DNA of 64,000 bases from an uncultured Lachnospiraceae bacterium. Lineage in GTDB: Bacteria > Bacillota > Clostridia > Lachnospirales > Lachnospiraceae. The first letter of the stretch is position 1; the number at the start of each line of letters is the position of its first letter. The DNA lies in the NCBI GenBank assembly GCA_947588995.1, contig CANPZI010000003.1, positions 62,001-126,000 on the forward strand, in the 5' to 3' direction. Made by a program: the position numbers and the translations under genes. The notes under the pieces are model-generated. The model saw only the letters and a list, made by a program, of their open reading frames with translations, had not been told where the DNA came from and searched no databases. Below are positions 38,619 through 51,608 of the stretch, piece after piece.

Positions 38619-39191
38619 TTACTGCGCCTGATAGGATCTCTCGGCGAGCAGTGTGCCCTCGGGGTCAAAATAACGAACCGTGACCGTGCAGGCGCCGGGC
38701 TGTCCGACAGCATCGTCGAACGACTCCACCTGCTCCTCAAAGGTATCCGCCTGGTTCTCAAGCTCCGCTGCCAGCATATCACCCGCATCCTCGGGGAGCT
38801 CCTCCGCATCCTCGAAAGTAAACTCCATGATAAACTCGTTGCCCTTTACCTCATAGTTCAGGCCCATGCCCTCTCCGGCCATCGCGTCAAGCGCGCCCTC
38901 GAAAGCCTCCTTGATGCTGGGATCCGAGAAATATGCCTCCAGCGTCTGGCCATCGGCGGACTCGGCTCCGCTCTCTGCCTCGGCTTCTGCCTCTGCGTCA
39001 GCAGCCGCTTCCTTGGCCTCATCCTCAGCCTCCTGAACCGCCTGCTCCTCCGCCTCATCAGCAGTGTCTTCCGCAGCTGTCTCCGTCTCGCCTGCAGTGT
39101 CTACCGCCTGCCCCCCCCCACATGCGGTAACGGACAGGGTAAGCGCCATCGCTGCAGCGCACGCCATAACCTTCAGTGTTCTTCTCTTCAT
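38619..39191 (-). CDS. DUF4854 lipoprotein, possibly phase variable
   Basis: A 190-residue lipoprotein: KRR start, hydrophobic core, lipobox SVTAC, then GGG, an acidic Glu/Ala/Thr-rich linker (about 28-75) and a C-terminal domain (about 80-190: SIKEAFEGALDAMAGEG, NEFIMEFTFED, VTVRYFDPEGTLLAE) that matches my memory of DUF4854. Function unknown. The start at 39191 has AGGAGGAGG. The three glycine codons after the lipid-bearing cysteine form an uninterrupted run of nine G (complement of C at 39111-39119); a one-base slip would frameshift the protein right there. A second G9 run lies in its promoter spacer. Confidence 0.8.
   Translation of the reverse strand: MKRRTLKVMACAAAMALTLSVTACGGGQAVDTAGETETAAEDTADEAEEQAVQEAEDEAKEAAADAEAEAEAESGAESADGQTLEAYFSDPSIKEAFEGALDAMAGEGMGLNYEVKGNEFIMEFTFEDAEELPEDAGDMLAAELENQADTFEEQVESFDDAVGQPGACTVTVRYFDPEGTLLAERSYQAQ
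39111..39119 (-). repeat. G9 tract inside the lipoprotein coding region
   Basis: Nine C on the plus strand (G on the coding strand) encode Gly-Gly-Gly directly behind the lipobox cysteine. Such tracts slip during replication. Confidence 0.9.
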
Positions 39192-39268
39192 AATCGTTTT
39201 CCTCCTCCTGCTCATAAGAGCGTTCTGTCTTATCACACTGTCAAACGTGTGACATCACACAAGAGACA

Positions 39269-39299
39269 ATTATATACGCTTTGCCCCCCCCCTTGTCAA
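39269..39299 (-). promoter_or_regulatory. Promoter with G9 tract in the spacer, upstream of the DUF4854 lipoprotein
   Basis: Minus strand: perfect TTGACA (39299-39294), then A, nine G (39292-39284), CAAAGCGTA, and perfect TATAAT (39274-39269). Spacer to TATAAT is 19 bases; to the overlapping TATATA (39276-39271) it is 17. The start codon is 78 bases beyond. Loss or gain of G in the tract would change promoter spacing and strength. Confidence 0.8.
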
Positions 39300-39343
39300 T
39301 ACCCGGAAAGAATTATTACAAAATGAATAAAAAGGCATTGTAC

Positions 39344-39377
39344 AAAAAACAACACCAGCGGATGTCCGTGGTGTTGT
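39344..39377 (-). terminator. Terminator of tgt-yajC
   Basis: Minus strand ACAACACCA pairs with TGGTGTTGT with an inner CGGAC/GTCCG-like pairing, followed by a T-run, about 30 bases past the yajC stop. Confidence 0.85.
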
Positions 39378-45399: not shown

Positions 45400-45408
45400 C
45401 CCCCCCCC
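45400..45408 (-). repeat. G9 tract in the leader of the muramidase gene
   Basis: Nine C on the plus strand. On the minus strand the order is G9, TATAAC, GGAGGA, start. A TATAAT-like -10 lies further upstream near 45450, so the tract is probably in the 5' untranslated part. Confidence 0.85.
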
Positions 45409-50498: not shown

Positions 50499-51608
50499 TC
50501 AATCTATTCGCAATCCCACCGCTTTTACCATGCGATCTGTAATTCTCTTATTTTTATCCAGTTCTCCCCACAAATATAAATACAGCCTGCTTAATAAACA
50601 GGAAAGCATGAACACTACAATAACAAACACTAATATCCATACAGCCCCGTCTAATTTCGCTGGATAGCTTCCTCCTTTTATCCGGCGAAATAATTTGAGA
50701 ATAAAATCCCATACGCCTCCATGTATAAGATATATGTAAAATGTTAAGCCGGACAATTTGGTAAATTCTTTTTTTAGATCCAGGAGCGTAAATCCATAGA
50801 AAATCAACACCGAAGCAAGCACGATTAACGGGCAGTATGGCTCTACATATTGCAAGCCTGAAATACCCGCTTTCATCTGCTGATATTCTAATCCCGCCGC
50901 GCATAATTCAAAGGATACTCCAAAAAGTATCATAAGTATTGCCTTTAAATTATTTTTATGTCCACTCATTTTGCGAATGCTATATCCTGCCATAAAATAT
51001 CCCAGATATTCAAATGCCTGCCCCATGTCCCAATGTATTTTTCTTGTTCCCGTCCAGTTGCTGACGCATGCCCAACACAAACAAACAAATGCTATTTTAT
51101 GAAAACTTTTTTCTGAAACACTATTCTTAAAGCGAAGCACAACAGGTGCCAATGCATACACCCCAACCAGCATATACAAATACCACAAGTGATACATCGG
51201 CGCACCTTCCATCATTTTTTTCAAGAGGTTCAACAAGGCGCGAAGTCCCCCCCCCATGTCTACTCCAACAAAACATCCTGGAATGGCATAAAAAAAATAC
51301 ACCGCGCTGAAGATAATTGTCGGTATGCCGATTTTCGCAAAGGATTTTGCATAAAATCTTTTATATTCTATATTTTTTTCATCTTCCAGGATAAATGCAC
51401 CCGATAACATTACAAAGCATGGCACAGCAAATCTCGGCAGTGAATTATACAGGCAAATCCAATAGGTTGATCGGGCATCTGTTACTGATAAACCTCTTTC
51501 CGAAATACCGGCAATTGCATTCCCAAACCATATTGCGCTGACGTGTATCATGACGACGGCAATTGTACTGATAATTCTAAGTAAATCATAATTTCTTTCT
51601 CTTTTCAC
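50499..51608 (-). CDS. Acyltransferase-3 family membrane protein
   Basis: A 369-residue integral membrane protein (about ten helices) of the OafA/WecH type. N-terminal catalytic-like signature NYDLLRIISTIAVVMIHVS carries the key histidine (about residue 22). Members O-acetylate or O-succinylate surface glycans. The start is GTG at 51608 behind GAGGAAG, 35 bases after the upstream kinase. Base composition is far more AT-rich than the neighbours. A G9 run (51247-51255) encodes Met-Gly-Gly-Gly at about residues 118-121, so slippage would truncate it. Confidence 0.85.
   Translation of the reverse strand: MKRERNYDLLRIISTIAVVMIHVSAIWFGNAIAGISERGLSVTDARSTYWICLYNSLPRFAVPCFVMLSGAFILEDEKNIEYKRFYAKSFAKIGIPTIIFSAVYFFYAIPGCFVGVDMGGGLRALLNLLKKMMEGAPMYHLWYLYMLVGVYALAPVVLRFKNSVSEKSFHKIAFVCLCWACVSNWTGTRKIHWDMGQAFEYLGYFMAGYSIRKMSGHKNNLKAILMILFGVSFELCAAGLEYQQMKAGISGLQYVEPYCPLIVLASVLIFYGFTLLDLKKEFTKLSGLTFYIYLIHGGVWDFILKLFRRIKGGSYPAKLDGAVWILVFVIVVFMLSCLLSRLYLYLWGELDKNKRITDRMVKAVGLRID
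51247..51255 (-). repeat. G9 tract inside the acyltransferase gene
   Basis: Nine C on the plus strand; on the coding strand ATG-GGG-GGG-GGA. A run of A/T also lies close by (51290-51297). Confidence 0.9.

Follow-up and report, generated by a model that had tools for sequence, protein, structure and literature searches.

Can a run of guanines between two perfect promoter boxes serve as a slippage-driven switch in a gut lineage of the Clostridia? This question is raised by a locus in a stretch of 64,000 nucleotides from an uncultured Lachnospiraceae bacterium (hereafter the window), the minus strand of which reads, in this order, TTGACA (39299-39294), A, G9 (39292-39284), CAAAGCG and TATATAAT (39276-39269). 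A homopolymer tract is thus placed between the -35 and -10 boxes at 39299-39269, as in promoters of the porA type, and the preliminary description of consensus TTGACA and TATAAT boxes on the minus strand, kept 19 bases apart by a spacer with nine Gs, is borne out. The pattern TTGACA-N15..21-TATAAT occurs twice in the 64-kb window, compared with 0.05 occurrences expected from shuffled sequence. The promoter is absent from the listing of our consensus promoter scan because that scan took spacings of 16-18 only. The overlapping TATATA that had been described at a spacing of 17 is present (39276-39271, minus strand) but agrees with the consensus in only four of six positions and lacks the final T. 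As an alternative -10 box it was rejected: it is a poor -10, though kept in all seven species that share the promoter, and in promoters where the tract abuts the -10 box such an alternative is also unavailable. The features of the locus and the further G tracts of the window are collected in Table 1.

Table 1. Promoter elements, genes and G tracts in the window (window coordinates)
Feature	Position	Strand	Basis
-35 box TTGACA	39294..39299	-	read in sequence; two-box pattern search
G9 tract inside promoter spacer	39284..39292	-	sequence; G9 in 7/7 species including source species
19-base spacer	39275..39293	-	sequence; equal length in 7/7 species
-10 box TATAAT	39269..39274	-	19 bases from TTGACA
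Lipoprotein gene, 190 aa, DUF4854	38619..39191	-	ORF and Pfam search (PF16146, E 6.3e-18)
Second G9 tract, in frame, directly 3' of lipobox Cys codon (TGT GGG GGG GGG)	39111..39119	-	sequence
Stem-loop with T6, possible yajC terminator, 5' of promoter	39344..39375	-	fold z -4.4
G9 tract just 5' of ribosome-binding region of ORF 45378-43693	45400..45408	-	sequence
G9 tract in acyltransferase ORF 51608-50499 (PF01757), frame open	51247..51255	-	sequence and Pfam search

The assignment of the promoter to a lipoprotein gene also held. The ORF downstream carries a lipobox (TAC-GGG) in addition to its DUF4854 domain, and its ATG lies 77 bases downstream of the -10 box. The gene is flanked by yajC (TIGR00739) and tgt upstream and by leuB downstream. 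A stem-loop with T6 stands between yajC and the promoter; our consensus terminator scan does not list this structure (39375-39344) but names a different one at 39356-39334. Most likely, the promoter is the lipoprotein gene's own. The second G9 tract of the gene, at the lipobox, was found in five of the seven species with the G9 promoter and in none of 25 remoter orthologues. As a separate observation, the length of the tract at 45400-45408 could alter the distance to the start of ORF 45378-43693.

Of the 77 genomes of the genus, 72 contain matches to the lipoprotein, and the best 30 loci were examined. The promoter has G9 and a spacing of 19 in all seven species in which it occurs, the source species included; five of these, again with the source species, were examined at the locus, while G067 and G072 were grouped with them by protein similarity. 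One species arrives at 19 in a different way, with the arrangement AAA-G9-7 instead of the one base-G9-9 of the others. The 25 remoter orthologues have a 17-base spacer and a TG-extended -10 (24 of 25 by script, 25 of 25 with L059, which has a second TTGACA and was judged by eye), and no run of at least eight Gs was found at their lipoprotein loci. In this lineage, a promoter of optimal spacing seems to have given way to one that contains a G tract and lies off the optimum. Comparison with related genomes, to which the preliminary description had looked for changes in the tract, gave a divided answer: the G-tract promoter is common to seven species, but its length is identical, and no variation at this promoter was seen among the seven in assembled genomes. 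Uniformity at this one site does not refute slippage, since G9 accounts for 84-85% of the tracts located in each of two genomes, so that seven out of seven would be met by chance in about 30% of cases, and since three of 19 same-site pairs elsewhere do differ.

The finding extends beyond one promoter. When the 77 genomes of the genus were searched with the pattern TTGAC, a G run of at least 8 and TANNNT, 149 matches were obtained in 42 genomes versus 12 for a reversed control. The 149 matches correspond to 112 distinct places, 98 of which were kept and 14 dropped for a spacing outside 14-22 or poor boxes, including some from the nearest species (e.g. G065:C7 at 12 and G000:C2 at 23). The kept promoters show a spacing of 19 in 53 cases, 18 in 13, 17 in 11, 16 in 12 and other values in 9, and the tract adjoins the -10 box in 74 of the 98. 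A spacing of 19 is the commonest for G9 (32/53), G10 (14/24) and G11 (5/9) alike, with the flank compensating, and promoters in which the tract abuts the -10 box also stand most often at 19 while their G numbers differ. Ordinary consensus promoters behave differently: among 133 from four of the nearest genomes, 80 have a spacing of 17, 25 of 16, 12 of 18, 4 of 19 and 12 another one.

The deviation is sharpest in the nine nearest species, where 35 of 39 G-tract promoters have their boxes either 16 or 19 bases apart (11 at 16, 1 at 17, 1 at 18, 24 at 19, 2 at 20). Counted by gene family (n=20), 18 are found at these edges (6 at 16, 1 at 17, 1 at 18, 12 at 19). Comparing 17-18 with 16-19, the family count gave p 2e-8 against the four-genome background and 6e-6 against the promoters of the source genome alone, with families grouped partly by hand and orthologues left unthinned in the ordinary-promoter background. 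Left out of this count are G069:C40 (spacing 16, within an open ORF) and G070:C22 (spacing 20, no ORF); it includes L221 (17), which a first count had excluded, and treats G065:C4 as its own family, though its weak downstream ORF grouped with L216; the family L070/L203/L214, scored at 19, has one member at 20. Outside the nearest species spacings of 17 and 18 are common (22/59). A narrower pattern was applied to 200 Lachnospiraceae genomes from 199 genera and was positive in 19, including G000 (the source genome) and G039, with no hit for the reversed pattern; the remaining 17 contain 22 such places, spaced at 14 (2), 16 (4), 17 (1), 18 (5), 19 (6) and 20 (4), with few at 17. The genes below G-tract promoters were judged by eye alone; they resemble genes for lipoproteins and secreted proteins, with one acyltransferase and one glycosyltransferase among them. 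A second G9 promoter spaced at 19 (L070, G000:C8:76082) precedes a gene the frame of which seems broken in the source genome and is continuous in G068 and G069. We conclude that a G tract holding the boxes off their usual spacing is a recurrent and statistically strong arrangement in this genus. The rule is quantitative: in the nearest species, the optimal spacing preferred by the ordinary promoters of the same genomes is avoided by those with a G tract, and the edge spacing yields a prediction of whether the output of a given promoter should rise or fall when one base slips.

The tracts themselves form a class of their own. Runs of G/C in the window have lengths of 1-5, are missing at 6, 7 and 8, and then appear four times at exactly 9. 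A/T runs taper smoothly to 8 with none of at least 9; only G/C runs show the peak at nine. By a dinucleotide shuffle the G runs of the window are mildly unusual (8 overlapping G8 matches versus 3.0 expected, with 6 of 100 shuffles reaching 8), and the run-length spectrum is the stronger test. In the source genome (3.21 Mb, 71 contigs), 82 G runs of at least 8 were located, of which 69 are G9 (84%), 5 G8, 6 G10 and 2 G11. They account for 169 of 172 overlapping G8 matches, which means that about one run, probably of 10, was missed. For the relative G069, 95 runs were listed and 94 read (80 G9, 8 G8, 6 G10). In 247 kb of fetched genome, 93 G/C runs of 5, 6 of 6, 2 of 7, 4 of 8, 54 of 9, 6 of 10 and 2 of 11 were counted, only the shorter runs being unbiased in this count because the stretches had been picked for runs of at least 8. 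The valley at 6-8 departs from the expectation for base composition; the genome has the many long G tracts beyond composition, bimodal in length, that characterize a phasome. Across the 77 genomes exact G9 greatly outnumbers exact G8 in G000, G065-G070, G072 and G073 (from 25 vs 6 up to 81 vs 8), with smaller excesses in G063 (31 vs 3) and G049 (20 vs 4), and in each of the seven other nearest genomes between 31 and 73 runs have a length of 8 or 9. G8 is favoured over G9 in G033 (34 vs 2), G036 (30 vs 14) and G037 (54 vs 6), indicating that the modal tract length itself may vary by lineage. In G069, clusters of six (L150, C1:12834-16171) and eight (L173, C11:70845-77415) G tracts are found within a few kb, in apparently repeated genes.

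All tract lengths derive from assembled genomes, in which homopolymers may be miscounted. False Gs from two-colour sequencing were rejected as the source of the tract, which recurs in the middle of contigs, at orthologous sites in metagenome-assembled genomes from four differently labelled samples (L112, L113, L114, L132). Strand-specific or RNA-level processing is not needed to account for the tracts: all but two of 176 are found on whichever strand is richer in G, a bias that base skew alone can produce. The promoter tract is located above the expected start, and an antisense ORF is crossed by 28 of the 176 tracts.

Two kinds of observation point to tracts that change in length. Of the source-genome tracts, 19 of 82 could be paired with a tract at the same site in G069 (counting tracts of at least 8 in the fetched G069 stretches only), and three of the 19 pairs differ by one base. 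In addition, genes are interrupted at the tract. When ten candidates were searched piecewise, two were clearly split between frames, namely an acyltransferase gene (profile positions 1-200 and 213-316) and an FGGY carbohydrate-kinase gene, with its N domain on one side and its C domain on the other; an assembly miscount may lie behind such a break. The frame was intact in 49 and split in 21 cases with G9 as compared to 5 and 8 for other lengths (p 0.054), a comparison contaminated by gene boundaries and antisense genes and not counted as support; an excess of in-frame G9 tracts was not clear from it. Long ORFs cross a tract in 60 cases, 30 of which, one being the lipoprotein, were searched against Pfam at a cut-off of 1e-8. 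Among the other 29, 12 gave no match and 17 did: nine methyltransferases, two acyltransferases and one each of GT87, YfhO, GH130, a sensor kinase, a response regulator and DUF6056. Modification of surface glycans is classical phasome content, and methyl-, acyl- or glycosyltransferases make up a raw share of 12 of the 29 genes. Loss of mismatch repair was rejected as a cause, as all 19 genomes tested have MutS_I and MutL_C domains, recognized from sequence; with MutS and MutL present, slippage should be restrained. The source genome has a second MutS_I match (G000:C45:5126-5437), located in a 1587-codon open frame; a single match was obtained in each of the other 18 genomes.

Given these findings, we propose that the locus is a promoter of the sigma-70 type in which a G tract liable to slippage determines the length of the spacer. 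It would be a slipped-strand switch, placed at the limit of the spacings that still work and belonging to an extensive poly-G phasome in uncultured Lachnospiraceae; we give this reading a probability of about 60%. Replication slippage would settle most tracts at nine Gs. With G9 the boxes are 19 bases apart, at the long edge of the working range, and transcription would be weak; loss of one or two Gs would bring the spacing to 18 or 17 and raise transcription, and gain of one would lower it still further. Promoters spaced at 16 stand at the short edge, and their output should increase with the gain of one G. A promoter at 17 would remain active after one slip in either direction, whereas at 16 or 19 a single slip would change output most. 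In the series reported for the mer promoter, 19 gave very low, 17-18 strong and 16 weak activity, as far as the accessible part of that study goes (PMC11049809), which agrees with the edge-spacing idea in direction. In the accessible part of a study on a library of consensus sigma-70 promoters, expression was high with every spacer length from 15 to 19, and 16 equalled 17 on average (PMC8695583), so that a one-base change between two perfect boxes may act only modestly and the size of the effect is uncertain. What we observed are the structure of the promoter, its recurrence, a spacing away from the optimum and genes split at tracts elsewhere; the rate of slippage, the change in expression and a benefit from varying surface lipoprotein and glycans within a gut population we infer. 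Of the preliminary idea of a promoter tuned by slippage, the tract that keeps the boxes off their usual spacing has stood; the genome contains many other poly-G tracts that bear hallmarks of contingency loci. The expected change in length did not appear at this promoter across the seven species.

The main rival to this switch is a fixed architecture. A G-rich, A-form-like spacer could be physically shorter, making 19 the optimum for a G9 promoter with no switching at all. The retention of 19 in all seven species, its frequency with G9, G10 and G11 and the equal lengths at the lipoprotein promoter would all follow. Such an optimum accounts for 19 but not for 16: it leaves unpredicted both the class at 16 in the nearest species (11/39 places, 6/20 families) and the tract-split genes, and the twist of two extra bases would stay uncompensated. 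We regard it as unlikely. Less probable still is a passive origin, in which slippage lifts any run of about seven Gs to nine, a 17-base spacer drifts to 19 and the promoter is weakened without any selected switching. The spread of the tracts over sense ORFs (60), antisense ORFs (11) and neither (11) with one modal length is what such drift would leave. It sits poorly, however, with flanks that differ while the total spacing is constant, as in AAA-G9-7 against one base-G9-9, with the prevalence of 19 among promoters whose tract abuts the -10 despite different G numbers, and with the 12 of 29 tract genes that are modification enzymes of the surface-glycan type.

An activator similar to MerR that distorts the DNA of a 19-base spacer, with the G tract as its site, we consider very improbable. 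The sites of MerR proteins are symmetrical, and a search of 39255-39310 for inverted repeats of at least 6 revealed no symmetrical operator in the spacer, the sole repeat being the TATATA of the -10 region. The same tract is also found within coding sequence, at places where a promoter would not be expected. In its favour, 19-base spacers mark promoters of the MerR family in the accessible part of the mer study (PMC11049809).

With the slipped-strand switch as the preferred reading, some 80 runs in one gut genome suggest a large set of slip-prone candidate switches. We tentatively put forward, at somewhat less than even odds, a wider proposal: an uncultured gut Lachnospiraceae lineage, not known for pathogens, may combine a poly-G phasome of unusual size, its tracts kept at nine Gs, with the presence of mismatch-repair genes, and the promoters of the lineage may have evolved to the edges at 16 or 19, where a single slip would matter most. 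Our analysis gave no sign of pathogenicity in the source lineage. The abundance of tracts in uncultured gut Lachnospiraceae makes the question testable in metagenomes.

Promoters made phase-variable by a G tract in the spacer are already known, as are poly-G phasomes, and we found no report of either from Lachnospiraceae among the open-access papers listed by our searches. The closest likeness is porA of Neisseria meningitidis, which has a G tract between -35 and -10 and a transcript level that follows the number of Gs in the available text (PMC3899988). It differs in belonging to another phylum; here, the design is common to many promoters, those of the closest species having a spacing of 16 or 19, and the switch is predicted from sequence. 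The phasome of Campylobacter jejuni, with 29 loci having tracts of at least 7 in NCTC11168, is similar in its dozens of G tracts, mostly of 8-11, in genes for surface structures. To our knowledge C. jejuni is without mutS and mutL, unlike the genomes examined here, in which domains of both are present. Its tract lengths also look more spread than the 84% at exactly nine found here: as far as the accessible part of the source goes, 988 counts gave 257 G8, 214 G9, 431 G10, 77 G11 and 9 G12, in a non-random sample of 11 tracts from colonies chosen as ON (PMC4965091). Clostridioides difficile shares membership of the Clostridia and phase-variable signalling genes, but the examples in the available part of the source use DNA inversion, not homopolymer slippage (PMC11868660). 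The pilus of Bifidobacterium breve provides slippage of G tracts in a Gram-positive gut commensal, and its authors mention G tracts in promoter spacers, with no detail in the text available (PMC9187656). In that text two pilus loci are studied, whereas here 82 tracts were located in the source genome and 95 in its relative G069.
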